Source: a virus
Virus record (IMG/VR): IMGVR_UViG_3300050821_007189
Location: 1-37,980 of that record
Direction: 5' to 3' (one strand)
Length of the DNA: 37,980 bases
Of this stretch, positions 229 to 33,078 are shown one piece after another. The notes beneath the pieces were generated by a model. The model was given only the letters and a program-made list of their open reading frames with translations, did not search any database and was not told where the DNA came from. Each line of letters opens with the position of its first letter. Position 1 is the first letter of the stretch. The position numbers and the translations under genes were made by a program.

Positions 229-446
229 CTCCCCGGATTCCTGACGAGTGGCGCGAACACTATCTCCATGCCGAGCGCTCCAAGCAGCAACTCCAGAAGG
301 ACCTCACGGTTGCTTTCGACCGGATCGCCGAACTCCAGGGCCAACTGCGCACCTGCAAGATCATGCTCTGGATCTCGGGGATGTTCATCGCTGGCCTGGG
401 GGCGGTGGTGATCTTACTGGCGAATGTTGTCCTGGAGCGGATCTAG
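225..446 (+). CDS. small single-pass membrane protein
   Basis: A 73-residue protein begins at an ATG overlapping the previous stop. The first 45 residues are charged and helical, with a coiled-coil-like run around residues 18-42. One strong hydrophobic segment follows at about residues 47-68 (from IMLWISG to ILLANVV), then a very short tail. This topology fits a small inner-membrane protein. A holin or superinfection role is possible, but nothing in the sequence decides it. It is followed by 57 bp holding repeats next to the recombinase gene. Confidence 0.6.
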   Translation: MTPRIPDEWREHYLHAERSKQQLQKDLTVAFDRIAELQGQLRTCKIMLWISGMFIAGLGAVVILLANVVLERI

Positions 447-478
447 GCCGCGCGCCCTGCACCAATATGCTATTCGGG

Positions 479-521
479 TGCAAAAGTTGATTCTTTTTGA
501 TTTATGAAGCGGAAATCAAAA
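479..521 (+). repeat. recombinase-adjacent repeat, copy A, with internal inverted repeat
   Basis: The segment begins TGCAAAAGTT (479-488) and ends GCGGAAATCAAAA (509-521). The same two blocks recur in the same order at 778-814. Inside copy A, TTTTGATTT (495-503) and AAATCAAAA (513-521) form a perfect 9-bp inverted repeat separated by 9 bases. The recombinase ATG (504) lies in that spacer. Two inverted arms around a short spacer is the layout of a tyrosine-recombinase core site, so this is a candidate attachment or binding site. A 6-bp hairpin, TGCACC/GGTGCA, lies at 458-482. Confidence 0.55.
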
Positions 522-1064
522 CCCTCGCCGCCGCCGATTTCACTCACTCGGGGAGAACTTCGGCTCCTGTTTTGCCACGCGCGTGAGGCTGATTTTCGAG
601 TCTACGTGCTGATGCTGATCCAGTACTGGCACGCCGGCCGCAACTCGGAAATGGTTCATCTGACGCGAGATAACTTCGCCGACGGTTTCATCAGCTACAA
701 ACGCGGCAAAGGCTCCGAGCCCTGCCGGCAGGAACTCGTCGTGCACGGAGATCCGCTCTTCAATGAGCTGGCAGTTGTGCAAAAGTTCGTTTTGAATCTT
801 CGCGGAAATCAAAAGCTGTATCCGCGCTCGCGCTGGACCTATTGGCGTCACCTGGTGGCGCTCGCCGTCGCGGCCGGCATTCCGCGGCACAAGGCCAGGA
901 CCACGGTGTTGAAGCATTCCATCTGCACGCATCTGGCTGAAACTCTTCCACTTAACGCAGTGCAGCGCCGCGCTGGGCACGTGAACGGCGCAAGCACTTT
1001 GCGCTACGCGAAGCTCCGGGAAGAGCAGGTCGACGCCCTCGTCTCCGCCGCCGCAGGGGTTTGA
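504..1064 (+). CDS. minimal tyrosine recombinase / integrase
   Basis: A 186-residue protein consists almost only of the catalytic domain of the tyrosine recombinase (phage integrase) family. The N-terminal arm- and core-binding domains are missing. Visible landmarks are R46 in GRNSE, a beta-hairpin lysine around K67-K69, GH at 158-159 and the likely nucleophile Y168, nine residues after H159 as expected. The usual HxLRH box reads TVLKH (134-138), so the first His is Thr and the second catalytic Arg is Lys. The protein may be a weakened recombinase or a divergent active one. Repeats lie at its start, inside it and just after its stop. No clear ribosome binding site precedes the ATG. Confidence 0.8.
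   Translation: MKRKSKPSPPPISLTRGELRLLFCHAREADFRVYVLMLIQYWHAGRNSEMVHLTRDNFADGFISYKRGKGSEPCRQELVVHGDPLFNELAVVQKFVLNLRGNQKLYPRSRWTYWRHLVALAVAAGIPRHKARTTVLKHSICTHLAETLPLNAVQRRAGHVNGASTLRYAKLREEQVDALVSAAAGV
778..814 (+). repeat. recombinase-region repeat, copy B
   Basis: TGCAAAAGTT (778-787) and GCGGAAATCAAAA (802-814) repeat exactly the two outer blocks of copy A (479-521), in the same order but 6 bases closer together. Copy B lies within the recombinase coding sequence (about residues 92-104). A 13-base identity 300 bp apart is unlikely by chance, so this looks like a duplicated protein-binding or recombination site. Confidence 0.55.
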
Positions 1065-1086
1065 TTTCGTTTGATTGTTTTGATTT
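1060..1086 (+). repeat. TTTGATT direct-repeat array after the recombinase gene
   Basis: TTTGATT occurs at 1060, 1070 and 1079, a spacing of 9-10 bases (one helical turn). The first copy overlaps the recombinase stop codon. The last, TTTTGATTT at 1078-1086, is identical to 495-503, so the gene is bracketed by direct repeats. Helically phased copies suggest integrase arm-type or regulatory binding sites. Confidence 0.5.
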
Positions 1087-1104: not shown

Positions 1105-1503
1105 ATGGCCCAAGGTGGAAAAAGACCAGGCGCAGGCCGGAAGAAGGCAGAACGGCCCACCAATGCGAACGTCGCCGCGCGCGTTCTCGCCCAAGCCAAA
1201 GCCGAGCAGCTCTGGCTCTCGATGATCGACCTGGAGCGACGGCGCCTCGGGCTGAACAAAGACGGCACACTCAGCGAGAGAGAAAAGGGCGCGATCACAG
1301 ATGGTGAGTACCGCGGGAACTTTTCGATCATACCCCTCACCAACTTGCTCCGCTACCTCGAAGACCGCGCCTACGGCCGGCCAGTGGACACCGTGAACCA
1401 CCTGCACGACAAACCCATCGAGCACAACCTAAACCTCAATCTGTCCGAGCGCTTCCGCATCGCGATGGAGAAAGCCTCGAAACGTGTCAGCGACCTCCGC
1501 TAG
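1105..1503 (+). CDS. terS: terminase small subunit (candidate)
   Basis: A 132-residue basic protein begins with a GKRPGAGRKK motif (residues 5-14). That motif is typical of phage small-terminase-like and other DNA-binding N-termini. It sits directly before the large terminase, whose GTG start lies 20 bases inside this gene. The small subunit recognises packaging DNA and assists the large subunit. The rest is helical and not diagnostic, so the call relies on motif plus position. Confidence 0.7.
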   Translation: MAQGGKRPGAGRKKAERPTNANVAARVLAQAKAEQLWLSMIDLERRRLGLNKDGTLSEREKGAITDGEYRGNFSIIPLTNLLRYLEDRAYGRPVDTVNHLHDKPIEHNLNLNLSERFRIAMEKASKRVSDLR

Positions 1504-3028
1504 TTACGAGACGGACTACGAGCAGGAGCTGGTCGAGAAGCTCTATAGCTTCCGCCACGATCCGCTCGGCTGCGTTTTGTTTTCATTCCCTTGGGGCGAA
1601 GCCGGCACTGAGTTCGAGCACGATCCCGGCCCGCGCGAGTTCCAGCGCCGCACCCTCGAAGAACTCGGCGCGCATCTCCAGAATCCGGAGACGCGACACA
1701 AGCCCTTCCGCAAAGCGATCTCCTCCGGCCACGGCATCGGCAAGAGCGCACTCATCGCGCAGATCGTTCACTGGGCGAAATCCACCTGTCTGGATTGCAA
1801 AGTGCTGATCACGGCCAACACCGGCGACCAGCTGCGCTCGAAGACGCAGCCGGAAATCTCGAAGTGGTTTCGCAGCTGCATCAACAAAGACTGGTTTGAC
1901 GTGCACGTCACCTCGATCAAGATCAACGATGCCGAGCACGAGGACACCTGGCGCACCGATTTCAGCACCTGGAGCGAAGACAACCCGCAAGCCTTCGCCG
2001 GCGCCCACAACAAAGGAAAGCGCCTGGTCATCATCTTCGACGAAGCGGCCGGCATCTCCGATGTGATCTGGAAAACCGTGTCCGGCGCGCTTTCTGACGC
2101 CGACACCGAGATCATCTGGATCGCGATGTCGCAGGCCTTCCGATCGGAGGGCGCATTCTACGAAGCCGTCTTCGGGGATCAGAGGCATCGCTGGAACCCG
2201 GAAGTGATCGACAGCCGCACGGTGGAAGGGATCAACGTCGAAGAGATCGACGAAGAGATCAAAGTCTACGGAGAGAACTCCGATCACGTCCGCGTGCGCT
2301 GGCTCGGCCTGTTTCCTCTCGCCGGCGGCGGCAAGTTCATCGACCTTGACCTGGTCCAGCAATCGCAACACGCGCCCGGCTTCGCGCTCGACACCGATCC
2401 GCTCGTCGCCGGTGTGGACTTCGCCTGGGGTGGAGCTGACGACAACGTGATCCGCTTCCGCAAAGGACTTGACGCCCGCTCCATCCCGCCGATCAAAGTG
2501 AAAGGCCAGTTCACCCGCGACGCGGCGGTGATGGTGGGCAAGATCAGCGACGTGCTGAGCCGCACTTATGACGGCGAGAAAGTGGCGATGGTGTTTTTCG
2601 ATTCCGCCGGCATCGCTTCCTCGGTCTACTCCGGCGTGCGCGCGCTCGGCTATGAAGACCGCATCATGCTGGTGAACTTCGGCGCCGACTCACCCAAAGC
2701 CAGCTGCGCCTACTGGCGAGATTTTATGTGGGACGGCATGAAGCAGTGGATGCTGCGCGGCGGAGGGATCGACAAGGATCACGACCTGGCGGCCGATCTG
2801 CAGAAGCCGGTCCTGGTCTACGACCGCCTGCAGCGCGTGAAGCTTGAATCGAAAGAAGACATGAAGAAACGTCTGGCGAAGATGGGGCTCGACTCGGCAT
2901 CGCCCGACGATGGCGACGCGCTGGCTCTGACGTTCGCCGCACCGGTGTCGAAGCGTGCGCCGTTGACGGTGGACACGCCGCCGGCGAGTGTGAGTGCGCG
3001 ATCGAGCGATGGCGGGTGGATGGGATGA
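1484..3028 (+). CDS. terL: terminase large subunit (packaging ATPase/nuclease)
   Basis: This 514-residue packaging motor is close to the P22 gp2 length. The ATPase domain shows a Walker A-like SGHGIGKSA (81-89), a Walker B LVIIFDEA (181-188) with the catalytic acid, and a coupling segment near IWIAMSQ (211-217). The C-terminal RNase H-like nuclease shows acidic residues at D312 (GVDFAWGG), D373 (FFDSAG) and the DDGDA cluster (475-479). It starts at GTG 1484 within the small-terminase gene, suggesting coupling. Its stop overlaps the next ATG (3025). It cuts concatemeric DNA and drives it through the portal. Confidence 0.95.
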   Translation: MSATSASYETDYEQELVEKLYSFRHDPLGCVLFSFPWGEAGTEFEHDPGPREFQRRTLEELGAHLQNPETRHKPFRKAISSGHGIGKSALIAQIVHWAKSTCLDCKVLITANTGDQLRSKTQPEISKWFRSCINKDWFDVHVTSIKINDAEHEDTWRTDFSTWSEDNPQAFAGAHNKGKRLVIIFDEAAGISDVIWKTVSGALSDADTEIIWIAMSQAFRSEGAFYEAVFGDQRHRWNPEVIDSRTVEGINVEEIDEEIKVYGENSDHVRVRWLGLFPLAGGGKFIDLDLVQQSQHAPGFALDTDPLVAGVDFAWGGADDNVIRFRKGLDARSIPPIKVKGQFTRDAAVMVGKISDVLSRTYDGEKVAMVFFDSAGIASSVYSGVRALGYEDRIMLVNFGADSPKASCAYWRDFMWDGMKQWMLRGGGIDKDHDLAADLQKPVLVYDRLQRVKLESKEDMKKRLAKMGLDSASPDDGDALALTFAAPVSKRAPLTVDTPPASVSARSSDGGWMG

Positions 3029-3762: not shown

Positions 3763-3963
3763 ATGCCTGCCTTCCTCGAAGCGAAGCTGAAGTCGAAGGC
3801 CGCCGAGAAGGGGTTCAGCGGCAAGAAGGCCAAGCGCTACGTCTACGGCGCACTGAACAACATGGGCGCGATGCGCGGGAATAAAGAGACTGCCAAGGGC
3901 AAGCGGATGCAGAAGAAGCATGACGCCGCCACGCCCATGAGAAAGCTAAGTGATCTGGCCTGA
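3763..3963 (+). CDS. small basic hypothetical protein
   Basis: A 66-residue, very Lys-rich protein (KLKSKAAEKG, GKKAKRY, KGKRMQKKH) begins immediately after the preceding TAA and ends at a TGA overlapping the next ATG. Its charge suggests nucleic-acid contact or a structural role in the head. I recognise no family. Its tight packing against both neighbours supports expression with the packaging genes. Confidence 0.6.
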   Translation: MPAFLEAKLKSKAAEKGFSGKKAKRYVYGALNNMGAMRGNKETAKGKRMQKKHDAATPMRKLSDLA

Positions 3964-4412
3964 TGTCGCTCACCCGCGAACAAATTAAGCACGCCCCGGT
4001 CTCCGAAGAAGTCTGGCGGCCGCAACGGACGCAAGTCGGCGGACTCTGGTTTGATCCGCTGAAGATCAAGCCGCTCGGGGATCACATCCTCGTCGTACTC
4101 GACGAAGAGAAGCCAGCCAGCGATGTGATCGAAACCCCGGACGTGGCCCGCAACCGGGAGATCGGCACGCGGATCGGCACCGTGATCGCAGTCGGCCCCG
4201 GCAGGTGGCACGAGAAGCGCAAATACACCGAGAGCTATCTGCTCAACCGCGAAGTGTTCAAGCCGACACAGTTGAAGCCCGGCGACTGCGTGGTGATCGG
4301 CCACTACTCCGACTGGGAATCCTGGTTCGCTGATTACGAGGGGCGCGGCGCGAACGTGGTGTTGTGCCAGGAGAACGATGTGCGGCTCTATCAGCGGCCG
4401 TTGCAAGCCTAA
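3963..4412 (+). CDS. GroES-like co-chaperonin (cpn10 fold)
   Basis: A 149-residue protein whose middle matches the cpn10 pattern: KIKPLGDHILVVLDEE (34-49) as the first strands, a polar loop at about 50-66 in the place of the mobile loop, GTVIAVGPGR (72-81), LKPGDCVVIGHYSDW (104-118) and a terminal NVVLCQENDVRLY (131-143). It has about 30 extra N-terminal residues and an insertion around 82-103 compared with bacterial GroES. Phage co-chaperonins such as T4 gp31 replace GroES on GroEL so that the coat protein can fold. The position between terminase and portal fits a head-assembly role. Its start overlaps the previous stop. Confidence 0.8.
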   Translation: MSLTREQIKHAPVSEEVWRPQRTQVGGLWFDPLKIKPLGDHILVVLDEEKPASDVIETPDVARNREIGTRIGTVIAVGPGRWHEKRKYTESYLLNREVFKPTQLKPGDCVVIGHYSDWESWFADYEGRGANVVLCQENDVRLYQRPLQA

Positions 4413-6632
4413 ATGCCCGTCGTCCTCTCATCGAAATCAAAGAAGCGCTCGAAGGGGATCTCCGACGACGAGGATCTCATCCAGAAATCCCTGAAGCGCT
4501 TCAAGATCACCGCCGAATCGGAGTCGGAGTCGCGGCGCCAGGCGCTCGAAGATCTCAAGTTCTCAATCGGCACCGGCCAGTGGGATGAATCCGTCAAAGC
4601 CAACCGTGAGATCGAAGGCAAGCCGTGTTTGACCATCAACCGTGCCCCTGCGTTCCTCCGCCAGTACACCGGCGAAGAGCGCCAGCACCGGCCCGCAATG
4701 CTGGTGAGCCCGGTGGGATCGGGAGCGGATCTCGAAGTCGCCAAGATTCACCAGGGCGTGTTGCGCCACACCGAAGTCGTGAGCGTGGCCGACGTCACCT
4801 ACGACAACTCCTACGACATGATGATGCGCATCGGCTGGTGCCCGTGGCGGATCAAGGTGGATTACGTGCACGAGCGATCGTTTGACCAGGAGCCGCGCAT
4901 TGAAGCGATCGAGAATCCCTTTGCGGTCTATCTTTCGCCCGTGCGACGGCCGGACGGCACTGATCCGCTGTGGGGACACGTCGTCACCGACTACTCGAAA
5001 GAAGACTATGAAGCCGAGTTCGGCGAGACCGACATGGTGAAGTTGCACTTCCCCACCAGCCAGGGCAATGCCGAGCCGGACTGGGTGACGAAAGACGGGG
5101 CGCGCGTCGCCGAGTACTGGTGGATGGATCTGCAACGCAAAATGCTGTGCCAGCTCGACAACGGCTCGGTGCTTTTGGAAGAGGAGATCGCGAAGATCGA
5201 GCGAGATCCCGCTGGCAAGTTCCGCCGCAACCAGTTGCGGGATCGCATCGTCGATCAGCGGGAGACCACCATCCGCAAAGTGAACTGCGTCATTCACGAC
5301 GCGATGCGAGTGCTGAAGACCTACGAATATCTGGGGATGTATCTCCCCTTCCCCGAAGTCAACGGGGTGCGGCTGAACGTGAATGGCAAGGTCTACCGCG
5401 CCGGGATGGTGCGCGACTATCGCGACGCCCAGCGCATTTATGACTTCATGGTCACGCGCCAGGTGGAGCAGGTGGACATGGTGTCGAAAGACCCGCTCTG
5501 GGTGCCCGATGCGAACGCACAGTACGGCGAAGACTATCGCCAGATGAACCGGAAGAACTTCTCTCACCTGTTTTTCAAAGCTTACGACGGAGAAGGGCGC
5601 CAGTTGCCGCAACCCGCGCGCGCCGGGCGGGAAGCTCCTATCCAGGCGATGACCGAAGTGATCAAACAGGCCGACTACGACATGAAATCCGTGATCGGCA
5701 TCTACGGATCGAGTCTGGGCGAAGAAGCGGGCAGCGCACAGGAGTCCGGCTTCGCCATCATGAACCGCCGCGAGCAGTCCGACACCGGGGCAGTGACCTG
5801 GCATGACAATTTGAACCGCGCGATTATGTGGCAGGGCAAGATCCTGCTCGATCTCTGGCCGAAGCTGATCAACGCAGCCCGCGTGCAGCGCATCGTCAAT
5901 CCCGACGACAGCGTGAAGCATGCCGTGGTCTTCAACTCCCAGTACAGCGACCCGGCAGAAGCGCAGCAACACCTGAACGAACAGCTCGGGCTGAAAAAGG
6001 CTTACGACGTGGGAGCTGGCACCTATGACCTCGTCTTATCCAGCGGGCCAATGTATGCCACCGCGAGAAAAGAGGCGTTCAAGGCTCTGACTGCGGTGAT
6101 CAGCGAAAATCCGGAAATGATGCTGCCGATGGTGGGTGACATCTGGGCCAAGAATGCCGACTTCCCGGACGCCGATGTTCTCGCGGCCCGCTTCAAGAAG
6201 ATGCTGCCTCCGAACCTACAGGACGAGAGCGCCGAGGACGCACAGTCGAAGTTGCTGGCCCTGCAATCGCAACTGCAGCAGCTCAGCCAGGCGCACGATC
6301 TCATGGTGCAGGAGTTGAGCCGCGCCGACGACACCATCCGCACCAAGCGCCTCGATCTCGAATCGCGCGAACGTGTCGCTCTGATGAACAACTGGACGCA
6401 GCTCATGCTGCAGCGCCTGAAATCGCACGACGTGGCGGCCCAAGCGCAGATGGATGCGCAGCTCGAAGCCATCACGCAGCGGCTCTCGGTGCTCCACGAA
6501 AACATGAGCATCCAGGACGATGCTGGCGCCCCCGTCAACACGCCGGAACTCTCAAACTCCGTCGAACCCAAAGTGCAGCCGATCACGCCCGCCGCGCCCA
6601 CGCCCCGACCGCAACCCGTAGGAGGGATGTAA
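4413..6632 (+). CDS. portal protein, P22-like
   Basis: A 739-residue portal, close to P22 gp1 (725). The N-terminal segment resembling PCLTINRAPAFLRQYTGEER (about 70-90) followed by RPAM is characteristic of the P22-type portal family. The dodecameric portal forms the DNA channel and docks the terminase and then the tail. The C-terminal region (about 606-699) is Gln/Leu-rich and predicted to form a long coiled coil, as in the P22 barrel. The last 25 residues are Pro-rich. It starts directly after a TAA and ends in TAATG with the next gene. Confidence 0.93.
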   Translation: MPVVLSSKSKKRSKGISDDEDLIQKSLKRFKITAESESESRRQALEDLKFSIGTGQWDESVKANREIEGKPCLTINRAPAFLRQYTGEERQHRPAMLVSPVGSGADLEVAKIHQGVLRHTEVVSVADVTYDNSYDMMMRIGWCPWRIKVDYVHERSFDQEPRIEAIENPFAVYLSPVRRPDGTDPLWGHVVTDYSKEDYEAEFGETDMVKLHFPTSQGNAEPDWVTKDGARVAEYWWMDLQRKMLCQLDNGSVLLEEEIAKIERDPAGKFRRNQLRDRIVDQRETTIRKVNCVIHDAMRVLKTYEYLGMYLPFPEVNGVRLNVNGKVYRAGMVRDYRDAQRIYDFMVTRQVEQVDMVSKDPLWVPDANAQYGEDYRQMNRKNFSHLFFKAYDGEGRQLPQPARAGREAPIQAMTEVIKQADYDMKSVIGIYGSSLGEEAGSAQESGFAIMNRREQSDTGAVTWHDNLNRAIMWQGKILLDLWPKLINAARVQRIVNPDDSVKHAVVFNSQYSDPAEAQQHLNEQLGLKKAYDVGAGTYDLVLSSGPMYATARKEAFKALTAVISENPEMMLPMVGDIWAKNADFPDADVLAARFKKMLPPNLQDESAEDAQSKLLALQSQLQQLSQAHDLMVQELSRADDTIRTKRLDLESRERVALMNNWTQLMLQRLKSHDVAAQAQMDAQLEAITQRLSVLHENMSIQDDAGAPVNTPELSNSVEPKVQPITPAAPTPRPQPVGGM

Positions 6633-26439: not shown

Positions 26440-26477
26440 GTTAATTAATAAACCATCGCCGGGTTAATTAACAAACC
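26440..26477 (-). promoter_or_regulatory. divergent control region with two TTAATTAA operator-like repeats
   Basis: Two near-identical 15-mers, GTTAATTAATAAACC (26440-26454) and GTTAATTAACAAACC (26463-26477), lie 23 bases apart, about two helical turns. On the leftward strand they supply TTGTTA (from 26474 to 26469), an 18-base spacer and TATTAA (from 26450 to 26445), a fair promoter for the zinc-ribbon gene. The repeats cover both promoter boxes, so binding there would control it, and perhaps also the rightward early genes starting at 26542. Confidence 0.6.
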
Positions 26478-26541
26478 CTGATCGGGGCTGGTTACCTTGG
26501 GTATCTAGTCAGTCAACACAGCACGAAAGTACAGTGGCCGC

Positions 26542-26895
26542 ATGGAATTCGACACCGAGAAAACGCAAGCGCAGCCGTCGAATCCCTTCGATGAAGGGTT
26601 CCTCCGCCGAGCGAAGGATGCTGAGAATCGCCGATTGGCCGATTGCCGCACGACAGCACCCCAGCGCGCGATGACGAGCGAAGAGATCGTCGCCGAATTT
26701 TTCAAGTACCACGCGCCGAATGATTTCACGATCCCGAAGTACGCCGCGATCAATCAGGCCGCCAAGAATTTCGCCGAAGTTGTCCTGGCGAACTGTCCGC
26801 GCGGAGCGGATCTCGCCGCCGCGATCCGCCTGATCCGGGACGCGCGCATGACGGCCAACGCTGCGATTGCGCTGAATGGGTTGTCGCTGTACTGA
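26542..26895 (+). CDS. Acb2/Tad1 hairpin-domain protein, candidate anti-CBASS/anti-Thoeris sponge
   Basis: A 117-residue early protein. The first 45 residues are charged and variable. Residues about 46-112 match the Acb2/Tad1 hairpin domain pattern: FFKYHAP (53-59), then PKYAAINQAAKNFAEVVLA, NCPRGAD (84-90), then AIRLIRDARMTANAAIALN. The order F.YH.P, Y..I, CP, M..NAAIA is what I use for the call. Acb2 proteins are small helical oligomers that bind cyclic nucleotides and so block CBASS and related signalling. As the first rightward early gene it would be made early, as expected for a defence inhibitor. Sequestration activity here is inferred. Confidence 0.75.
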   Translation: MEFDTEKTQAQPSNPFDEGFLRRAKDAENRRLADCRTTAPQRAMTSEEIVAEFFKYHAPNDFTIPKYAAINQAAKNFAEVVLANCPRGADLAAAIRLIRDARMTANAAIALNGLSLY

Positions 26896-28548: not shown

Positions 28549-29031
28549 ATGGCGACTCAATCGACAGCATCCCACAATCCGTCCGCGTGCTCAAGCGGAA
28601 AAGCGCGCTTCGCCGAAGCTGCGCGGGAAGCTCTTGAGTCCCTCCGGCCATTCCTTCCCGAGCTGACCGACATCGACCACAACGCCGCCCGCAATGGCGG
28701 CAAGCCTTCCGCGTTTCACCTCGCGGCGCTGAAGGCTCACCTGGCACTCGCGGGAATGGAGTTGAGTGTCGCAAGGCGCAACACCCAGAGCGGAATCGAT
28801 TTCTACCAGGTTTTTGATTTCGCGACAGCGACGGCACGCCCTGCGGCACTCAATCCTGTTCCCGAACTCCCGACCGAGCGAAGAGAGCAGGAATCGTCTG
28901 CCAGAGCTGGAAGAAAAAACCTGGTCCGAAGGCCGGGGCGAATTTTGCCCCGGCTGCTGCCCGAGCTGGGAACAAAAAACCTGGAATGCGTGGAGCCACC
29001 CAAACGGCGGTTTCACAGGGAGGGATTTTAG
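28549..29031 (+). CDS. hypothetical early protein
   Basis: A 160-residue protein. Residues 20-80 are helical (KARFAEAAREALESLRPFLPEL, interrupted by IDHNAARNGG, then FHLAALKAHLALAGMEL). From about 105 the sequence becomes Arg/Pro-rich and low in pattern, so the true protein may be shorter or the tail poorly conserved. It ends just before the candidate replication origin. No family is recognised. Confidence 0.5.
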   Translation: MATQSTASHNPSACSSGKARFAEAAREALESLRPFLPELTDIDHNAARNGGKPSAFHLAALKAHLALAGMELSVARRNTQSGIDFYQVFDFATATARPAALNPVPELPTERREQESSARAGRKNLVRRPGRILPRLLPELGTKNLECVEPPKRRFHREGF

Positions 29032-29035
29032 GGTG

Positions 29036-29058
29036 TTGGTTTCTTTACTTGATACCAG
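29036..29058 (+). other. candidate rolling-circle double-strand origin (nick site)
   Basis: ACTTGATA (29047-29054) lies in a T-rich stretch, in the loop of a small hairpin with TGGT (29037-29040) and ACCA (29054-29057), immediately before the Rep gene. Rep_1 plasmids of the pC194/pUB110 type and phiX174 are cut within CTTG^ATA; here the cut would fall between 29051 and 29052. The 7-mer also occurs by chance elsewhere (6828-6834), so location and hairpin carry the argument. Confidence 0.5.
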
Positions 29059-30164
29059 TGAATAAGTCGACAGATCAAACCGAAGCTCTTGATTCTAGGG
29101 TTTTTGGCTCTTGGGGTGTTTTGGATTCTGGGCCTCAACAATTTCTCGGGACGGAGTTTCGTCTCTTAGATCGTTACGAGATTCAGGCGGGGTTGGTGGA
29201 GACCTTGAAGCAGGCAAAAAATCATCGGGTTCGGAGGAAAGCGGCGGCCTGTTCTGACTGCCATCGCAGTTTCCGCCACTGGCGCTGCCGGAACAGCCAC
29301 GACTGGGCCGAAGCTGAGAACTCCTGCTCGGTTCGGGTTTGCCCGCACTGTTCTCATCGTCGTGCGAAGGTGCTCGGCTCCCGGATGGAGCGTTTCCTTC
29401 TGGGTCGGGAGAAGACTTCTCTGCGCTACGCAGTCTTAGCGGAGCGCAACTCTGAAAATGTGGCTGAGGGGATGAATCTTCTGTGGGAGTCGTGGACTCG
29501 GCTGCGCCGCTCAGTGCGCTGGAAAAACAAAGTCAAGGGTTGCATCGTTGCGCTCGAAGTCACCTACAACCGCGAGGAAGACACTTGGCACCCGCACCTG
29601 AATGTGCTGATGGAAGGCGAGTACTTCCCTTTCGAGGAATTACGCCAGGCGTGGAGTGAAGCGTCAGAACATCGCGGCCAGACTGCCTTCATTCGCGCGG
29701 CGGATGCGGGGACGGTGAGCGAGTTGATTAAGTATGTCACGAAAGTTTCCGACCTGATCGGCAACCCGCATGCGCTCGAAACTCTGTTGCTCGCTGTTCA
29801 CAAAAAACGCTTCGTTCGTACCTACGGCAGTTTTTATGGGCTGTCGGTTGCCGACGAAGAAGCTCCGGTGCAGAGTCACTGCCCCGATTGTGATTCGACG
29901 GAGTTGGTCGCTCTGGGCCGGATCAAACCGCAGCAAGTCAGTATGGATTTTGACGGGATTCTGCGCGTGCAATCGCGCGCGCCGGATGAGGTGGCGAGAG
30001 ATTTTGAGGAGAGCGCTTCGTTCCGTCCCGGTTTGTTTTTGCGTCACAAGTATGCGCCTCGTCCCGGTCAGGAAAGAACCCCGGCATGGGCGGACGCTTT
30101 CGACGACGGCGTGCGGGCGTTTTCGCGCGCGAAGTACACGGCATCGCGGCAACCAGCCGCGTAA
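29058..30164 (+). CDS. rolling-circle replication initiator (Rep_1 / HUH family)
   Basis: A 368-residue protein from GTG 29058; ATG 28986 (392 aa) is possible but overlaps the previous gene and the origin-like site. It has a zinc-type N-terminus (ACSDC, CRNSHDW, then RVCPHCSHRRA), the HUH metal motif in TWHPHLNVLM (H178 and H180), ALEVTYN before it, the likely nicking Tyr in IKYVTK (Y226), and a VHKKRFVRTYGSF segment as in pUB110-type Rep. It nicks one strand and binds covalently to start rolling-circle replication. T-rich third positions in its 5' part differ from its GC-rich neighbours, suggesting acquisition from a plasmid. No clear ribosome binding site is visible. Confidence 0.87.
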   Translation: MNKSTDQTEALDSRVFGSWGVLDSGPQQFLGTEFRLLDRYEIQAGLVETLKQAKNHRVRRKAAACSDCHRSFRHWRCRNSHDWAEAENSCSVRVCPHCSHRRAKVLGSRMERFLLGREKTSLRYAVLAERNSENVAEGMNLLWESWTRLRRSVRWKNKVKGCIVALEVTYNREEDTWHPHLNVLMEGEYFPFEELRQAWSEASEHRGQTAFIRAADAGTVSELIKYVTKVSDLIGNPHALETLLLAVHKKRFVRTYGSFYGLSVADEEAPVQSHCPDCDSTELVALGRIKPQQVSMDFDGILRVQSRAPDEVARDFEESASFRPGLFLRHKYAPRPGQERTPAWADAFDDGVRAFSRAKYTASRQPAA

Positions 30165-31774: not shown

Positions 31775-31966
31775 GTGAAAAAGGGTGACAAAGTTCGCAT
31801 TAAAGCGACGAAGCCGGACGGCTCACCGCATCCGCACGCTGGGAAAACTGGCGTTGTGGATGAAGTCTGGATCACGGTGCCGCGCGTCACAGTCCTTCTT
31901 GATCGGGGCCAGAAGGACGGCGGAAATTTCGCCATCGTTTCAGCCGCATCGGTGGAAGCGCTATGA
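31775..31966 (+). CDS. small KOW/SH3-like protein
   Basis: A 63-residue protein from GTG 31775. It begins KKGDKVRIKATKPDG and continues HAGKTGVVDEVW, the strand-turn pattern of a KOW or SH3-like barrel that binds nucleic acid or protein. ATG 31771 is in a frame that closes at once. Its TGA overlaps the ATG of the next, frameshifted gene. Confidence 0.6.
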   Translation: MKKGDKVRIKATKPDGSPHPHAGKTGVVDEVWITVPRVTVLLDRGQKDGGNFAIVSAASVEAL

Positions 31967-32182
31967 GCGAACACTACCCCCGCCACACCCGTCTCCGCCT
32001 CCGCCTGGTGCCCCAAGTGCCAGAAGCAGACACAGCACCGCATCGACGGCACGCGCAAAGGTCCGTGCATCCCCTGCATGGAAAAACACGACGCCGAAAA
32101 AGCCGTCATCGACATCGACGAGCTGCGCCGAAAACTTTCTCCTCCCCCACAAATTTCACTCTTCGAGGAGATCGCAAAATGA
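31963..32182 (+). pseudogene. zinc-ribbon gene interrupted by a +1 frameshift
   Basis: ATG 31963 overlaps the previous TGA, but its frame becomes Arg/His-rich nonsense. From 31982 another frame encodes a convincing zinc ribbon: WCPKCQ, then GPCIPCMEKH, a helix and the end PPPQISLFEEIAK, with TGA 32180-32182 overlapping the esterase ATG (ATGA). Removing one C from the run CCCCC (31977-31981) joins the two parts into a 72-residue protein. This is either a sequencing or assembly indel, a real mutation, or a programmed +1 shift. QISLF near the C-terminus resembles the sliding-clamp-binding motif. Confidence 0.65.
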
Positions 32183-33078
32183 AACGCAACTTCGTTCTGA
32201 CTCTGGCCCTGACGCTTCTCTGCCCGCTCTTTATCGAAGCGCAGAACGGCACACCCTCCATGCTCTACTCCACCTGGAACGGGATTCCGCGGCAGACCGT
32301 GCTCTATGCGCCGCCGAACTTCCGCCCCGGCTCCCCGCTCGTGATCGTGCTGCACGGCACGGCAGTCGCCCCACCATCCGATCCGCCCATCGGCGTCTAT
32401 CACTTCATGGGATGGGACCAGCTTGCGGACGCGAACAAGATCCTCGTCGCCCAGCCGATTGCAACCTGGAAGGCGATCCCGCACTCAGGACCGAGCGGCG
32501 GAGCGTTCTTCTGGGAGTCGATTGGAACCGAATCGTATTTCCCCGTCGATCCCGACGACAGCGGATTTCTGGCGAACCTGGTCACCACGTTGCAGCAGCA
32601 GTACCAGACCGATCCGAAGCGCACCTTCGTCATGGGCTTCAGCTCCGGCGGGATGATGACGCAGACGATGGCAATTCAGCACGCCGAACTGTTTGCAGCG
32701 GCCGCGCCCTTCTCAGGAACGGTGTGGGTCAACAATCCGGGCACACTGACCCAGCCTTCGCAGCCGGTCTCGATCATCGAATTTCACGGGGACATGGACA
32801 CGACGATTCCCTACTGCGGCGGACTCTTCAATGGGTGGGGCGAGAAGAACATCGTCATCCCGTCGATCGATGCAGACCTGAATTACTGGCTGGCGGCGGA
32901 CGGCTTACCGGCAGAGTCTTTGCCGATGTGCAGCTCGGGATCGCCGGCCGCTCCGAGCTTCGATTCCGGACCCGCGAAGGTCGAAGTGCAGATCGTGCGG
33001 GAGTACAGCTTCGCTCACACCTGGCATCAGCCGGAGATTGCGATGGCGTGGGCGTTTTTCTCGACGCATGGAAGGTGA
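32179..33078 (+). CDS. secreted alpha/beta hydrolase, PHB depolymerase / feruloyl esterase-like
   Basis: A 299-residue protein from ATG 32179, with GAGGAG eight bases upstream; the frame is open further upstream but only as shadow. Residues 1-21 are a signal peptide (KRNF, Leu/Thr core, FIEA). The hydrolase core shows LVIVLHG (54-60, oxyanion loop), nucleophile S155 in GFSSGG (153-158), D207 in HGDMDTTIPY (203-212) and H280 in AHTWH (279-283). This triad and spacing match the LpqC/PHB-depolymerase and feruloyl-esterase family (COG3509). The phage-encoded secreted enzyme may cleave polyesters, plant-derived esters or acetylated surface glycans; substrate is unknown. Confidence 0.83.
   Translation: MKRNFVLTLALTLLCPLFIEAQNGTPSMLYSTWNGIPRQTVLYAPPNFRPGSPLVIVLHGTAVAPPSDPPIGVYHFMGWDQLADANKILVAQPIATWKAIPHSGPSGGAFFWESIGTESYFPVDPDDSGFLANLVTTLQQQYQTDPKRTFVMGFSSGGMMTQTMAIQHAELFAAAAPFSGTVWVNNPGTLTQPSQPVSIIEFHGDMDTTIPYCGGLFNGWGEKNIVIPSIDADLNYWLAADGLPAESLPMCSSGSPAAPSFDSGPAKVEVQIVREYSFAHTWHQPEIAMAWAFFSTHGR

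Follow-up and report, generated by a model that had tools for sequence, protein, structure and literature searches.

A minimal tyrosine recombinase gene and its adjoining dyad, a probable crossover site, behave as an exchangeable cassette beside phage terminase genes

Our window, the whole 37,980-base stretch of record IMGVR_UViG_3300050821_007189 (hereafter W), served as the reference for comparisons. On its plus strand, int (504-1064) encodes a minimal tyrosine recombinase of 186 aa. Downstream of it lie, on the same strand, a gene (1105-1503) in the position of the small terminase subunit (terS), so named from its place and its homology among relatives and showing no family match in Pfam or PHROGs, and its neighbour terL (1484-3028), recognized by PHROGs as terminase large subunit. 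Six related IMG/VR records (L001-L006) carry close relatives of int. Using terL as bait brought in further, more divergent relatives, among which the int proteins of L144, L146, L148 and L149 are 26-43% identical to that of W. Searches for int relatives by profile or by the codons for QRRAGHVNG returned the same six contigs again. The source phages are uncultured soil phages, perhaps of Acidobacteriota.

Farther along, W displays other recognizable genes. A GroES-like co-chaperonin is encoded at 3963-4412 (Cpn10, E 4.9e-7), an Acb2/Tad1 hairpin domain protein, a probable sponge protein against CBASS or Thoeris, at 26542-26892 (PF24729, E 1.4e-9), and an alpha/beta hydrolase (esterase or S9 peptidase-like) at 31963-33078, among the early genes. 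Between divergent genes, a direct repeat GTTAATTAAYAAACC with copies 23 bp apart (26440-26478) contains the only TTAATTA copies in the window and resembles the operator pair of an early regulator. The gene at 28986-30164 encodes a rolling-circle replication initiator (Rep_1) with an IS91-type zinc domain; since it is present in W alone among 12 records, it was discarded as a candidate partner of the recombinase.

The assignment of int as a recombinase gene, already made in the first-pass annotation, is borne out by its match to PF00589 (38.3 bits, curated cut-off 27.1), shared by the int proteins of relatives, and by its fold. The AlphaFold model (pLDDT 88.5) matches XerA and, over nearly the whole chain, the catalytic domains of P2, HP1 and lambda integrases, leaving int without the core-binding and arm-binding domains of lambda-type integrases and without the N-terminal domain of two-domain recombinases. 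By sequence, its best solved relatives are archaeal XerC-like/XerA proteins and XerD. The active-site residues are R46, K69, T134, K137, H159 and Y168, of which R46, K69, H159 and Y168 are unchanged across 12 aligned homologues. The classical consensus of tyrosine recombinases is R...HXXR...Y (PMC8371274); in W the HxxR is replaced by TxxK, and int is thus a homologous variant rather than a canonical member. The lysine of TxxK (K137) is present in all 12 homologues, whereas the histidine is regained in L146, L148, L149, L166 and Tunturi_3. Judging from these residues, the change of catalytic Arg II to Lys and of His to Thr could mean weak or absent activity. Tunturi_3 (L244), a phage of the acidobacterium Tunturiibacter (PMC11924767), encodes at 3980-4528 a related small recombinase, 35% identical to the int of L149, with an HxLK active site and no evident dyad beside the gene.

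A 25-bp dyad, TGCACCAATATGCTATTCGGGTGCA, precedes int in W (458-482). It was overlooked in the first-pass annotation, which took the surrounding repeats for recombination sites; its final four bases double as the beginning of one of these, TGCAAAAGTT. The exact pattern TGCACC-N13-GGTGCA occurs once per genome in W and its six relatives and always adjoins int, so that each phage possesses one short two-arm dyad, as in Cre/lox or Xer/dif systems. It lies upstream of int in W, L001 and L002/3, and downstream and inverted in L004-L006, overlapping the int stop codon in L004; this inversion relative to the gene favours a DNA site over an RNA hairpin. In L144, L146, L148 and L149 the equivalent position is taken by a 25-bp dyad that has different arms and a common centre. 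Across five arm types only, coming from few independent lineages, 90.6% of the arm cells are paired, two-sided changes concern 5 of 8 pairs, and covariation reaches 0.53 versus 0.18 in shuffles (0/500) and is lost when the arms are slid. When a looser pattern, TGCACCAA-N11-GGTGCA, was searched in IMG/VR viral contigs, only known relatives, among the matches listed, had such an int. Being single-copy and carrying compensating arm changes, the dyad is a better candidate than the repeats, and crossover would most likely take place there, not at the TTTGATT repeats. Nor would recombination cut the recombinase's own start, as initially proposed: the dyad ends 21 bp before the ATG and the start codon would be spared. 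With only one site per genome, self-excision or inversion by the cassette is excluded, and the partner site belongs either to a different molecule or to a repeated end. An invertase role was rejected on the same ground, the site being single per genome in the tyrosine types and the palindrome of the serine types (see below) also single where searched.

The dyad, int and the flanking units appear to travel together. Between W and L001, blastn homology covers 440-1086 (plus strand) with 78% DNA identity and drops steeply on both sides. Identities of int and terL do not go hand in hand: they are 82% and 53% for W/L001, 63% and 36% for W/L005, and 35% and 83% for W/L146. From these comparisons, the site, the gene and its units (about 650 bp) behave as a unit exchanged among related phages at a fixed slot beside the terminase genes. 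The self-contained cassette first proposed for this locus finds support here, as the exchange boundaries (about 440 and 1086) fall close to its repeat-marked ends and both flanks share the units.

Another type of enzyme can also occupy this slot, which immediately precedes the terminase genes. L145, L147 and L150, whose terL are 78-84% identical to that of W, carry there a Gin-like small serine recombinase (PF00239), followed by its own single palindrome. In 11 of 14 records there is one PF00589 protein and no PF00239 protein, and the reverse holds in the other three. L004 illustrates the exchange: its homology with L145 runs as far as the beginning of the recombinase gene and resumes 40 bp past the site; between these blocks the two contain different recombinase-plus-site units, and, by eye, the first codons of the L004 gene resemble a remnant of the serine gene. 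In the serine recombinases (L147 844-1392, L150 4670-5218, L145 1664-2239) the C-terminal helix-turn-helix is shortened, with 21 residues after the Gin-like part in L147 versus 53 in Gin. Small serine recombinases typically resolve or invert. An alternation has been reported for plasmid prophages of B. cereus, in which Xer-like and small serine enzymes replace each other and are believed to resolve dimers (PMC8026635).

As to the repeats themselves, every element listed in the first-pass annotation was found in its place. TGCAAAAGTT occurs at 479-488 and 778-787, extending to GTGCAAAAGTT at 478-488 and 777-787, and GCGGAAATCAAAA at 509-521 and 802-814. TTTTGATTT (495-503) and AAATCAAAA (513-521) form a 9-bp inverted repeat with the ATG (504) between its arms, TTTTGATTT returns at 1078-1086 and brackets the gene, and TTTGATT stands at 1060, 1070 and 1079, with spacing of 10 and 9. 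Two TTGATT units 10 bp apart (487-502, plus strand) lead from the site to the start codon and share the motif of the downstream array. The inverted unit AAATCAAAA just past the start codon, on the minus strand, has a similar inverted copy in relatives; a mid-gene pair TTTGAAT...AAATCAAAA (791-814) shows weak evidence of function; and three phased TTTGATT units (1060-1086, plus strand), supported by conservation and flank matching, stand after the stop and before terS. The order in W is core, TTGATT, TTTGATT, ATG and an inverted AATCAAA; the stop codon is followed by two or three phased units and then by terS.

Per-window tallies of raw k-mers mostly reflect GC-rich repeats in coding sequence. 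TTTTGATTT with at most one mismatch is found in 14 copies versus 5.6 expected (0/100 shuffles). Six of the nine TTTGATT copies in the window fall within 650 bp, making it the most concentrated 7-mer (uncorrected p 2e-9); some 7-mer was equally concentrated in 1 of 20 Markov-random sequences, and clustering alone is therefore only suggestive. The stronger case for the repeats comes from their conservation. In L001 and L002, with int 82% and 77% identical, the two units ahead of the gene persist with small motif changes, as do the inverted one that follows the ATG and the phased trio beyond the stop. The second copy of TGCAAAAGTT is absent from both and probably due to chance, which eliminated TGCAAAAGTT as recombination site; the mid-gene 13-mer retains no more than its AATCAAA. 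L005 and L006, which possess the same kind of recombinase and the dyad, lack the units.

The unit motif varies among phages (TTTGATT, TTTGAAA, TTTGAAC, TTAGCTT/TTTGCTT), and the two flanks match within a phage: a 7-mer pairing test gave 23 of 5040 permutations (p=0.005), and a looser version with local scores p=0.017. Inside the genes, 18 unit copies were counted versus 3.2 in synonymous-codon shuffles (0/500), with weak pairing to their own phage (p=0.04-0.06). W, L001 and L002 being related, few independent lineages stand behind these unit statistics. Similar arrays are present between recombinase and terS in the serine-type phages, so the units do not belong to the tyrosine enzyme alone; together with their absence in L005/L006, this points to a regulatory or accessory role, with a regulator or an accessory DNA-binding protein probably recognizing the TTTGATT-type units. 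TerS is unlikely to be the binding partner, since the TerS of L146 is close to that of W and its units are different. IHF sites (WATCAANNNNTTR) were set aside because, by eye, the second half misfits, and no sigma-70 promoter or terminator was detected beyond chance. Alternatively, a shared DNA-binding partner on the phased units would dock either enzyme at its own palindrome, making plug-in catalytic cassettes on one platform beside the packaging genes of headful phages; this would explain why two unrelated recombinases, a tyrosine enzyme with no core-binding domain and a serine enzyme lacking most of its helix-turn-helix, can stand in for each other in one slot. We regard this scheme as unlikely.

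From the domain, the site, its covariation, the matching unit motifs, the exchange and the swap, we infer binding, strand exchange, the partner molecule and the role of the units as follows. The recombinase would bind both arms of the dyad at 458-482, and two copies of the site would exchange strands at their centres, the partner copy lying most likely on another copy of the phage genome. In the manner of Cre/lox or Xer/dif, the enzyme would circularise terminally redundant injected DNA or resolve concatemers and dimers. The TTTGATT-type units would be bound by a regulator or accessory protein, either controlling int and the late operon or helping the recombination complex to assemble. P22-like portal and coat proteins are encoded and the gene maps are circularly permuted, which suggests headful packaging, from which repeated ends or concatemers would be expected. 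That small serine recombinases can take the place of int speaks for circularisation or dimer resolution, and the dyad stays with int despite its differing side. On the other hand, int has no core-binding domain, and no ParA-type partition protein was found. We give an even chance to this proposal, an exchanged cassette of a minimal tyrosine recombinase and its own dyad promoting recombination of the Cre/lox or Xer kind between copies of the phage genome.

It is favoured over host integration, a tenable but less probable explanation according to which the locus would be an ordinary integration module: the dyad would be attP, the small integrase would act on a host attB and the phased units would be accessory (arm, Xis or IHF-like). 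A single core adjoining int is indeed the usual attP layout, the site centre is conserved as if it matched a partner, and the related recombinase of the Acidobacteriota phage Tunturi_3 is annotated as an integrase. However, genome contigs contained no int relative and, in a search that was not exhaustive, no attB-like match to one strict pattern; in none of the records whose maps were read does viral sequence end at the site; and small serine recombinases replace int in close relatives. Moreover, eight records have no S24 repressor or HTH_3 protein over the cut-off, in a search for CI-like repressors that was not exhaustive.

That the dyad and arrays are merely operators or RNA leader elements, with a recombinase inactive or otherwise employed, appears distinctly unlikely. 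The arrays directly precede the starts of int and terS, TxxK stands in place of HxxR, and compensating arms are compatible with a hairpin too. Yet in L004-L006 the site lies on the other side of the gene and in the opposite orientation, the remaining catalytic residues are invariant, recombinase and site are always exchanged together, and a Rfam family search found no known RNA. Most improbable of all is the original proposal that the TTTGATT-type repeats are crossover sites by which the cassette moves or inverts itself. They lie near the exchange boundaries, and short homology could serve module exchange; but the units are variable and only 7-10 bp long, they also precede terS in the serine-type phages and are missing in L005/L006, and the single-copy dyad offers no second site for self-excision.

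If recombination between phage genome copies is confirmed, the cassette of about 650 bp would be a case of an enzyme moving in company with the DNA site on which it acts, and of phages exchanging tyrosine and serine recombinases at one fixed position beside their packaging genes. The group would then offer a naturally occurring collection of minimal recombinases, each paired with its site and differing in specificity (five arm types), useful both for understanding how a lone catalytic domain recognizes DNA and as a source of recombination tools. Light would also be shed on how uncultured soil phages handle circular or concatemeric DNA.

We know of no exchangeable, array-flanked cassette beside terS. 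In Cre/loxP of phage P1, which serves in circularisation and resolution, one tyrosine recombinase likewise acts with a dyad site present once in the phage genome. P1 is a plasmid prophage for which Cre is the listed recombinase (PMC8026635). Cre differs by its N-terminal DNA-binding domain and canonical active site, both lacking in int, loxP measures 34 bp versus 25 bp for the dyad here, and no ParA-type protein accompanies the system in W. The Xer/dif systems (XerA, XerD, XerH) include the closest solved relatives by sequence and fold and use a short two-arm site, whereas int is a phage-borne catalytic domain only, with TxxK for HxxR and a dyad unlike dif. With lambda-type integrases and attP, the locus shares a recombinase gene adjoining a single core site with accessory repeats nearby; unlike them, int lacks arm-binding and core-binding domains. 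The one strict pattern searched gave no attB match. Finally, the Gin-like serine recombinases of L145, L147 and L150 belong to an enzyme family unrelated to int, yet they occupy the same slot, with an adjacent single palindrome and the terS arrays.
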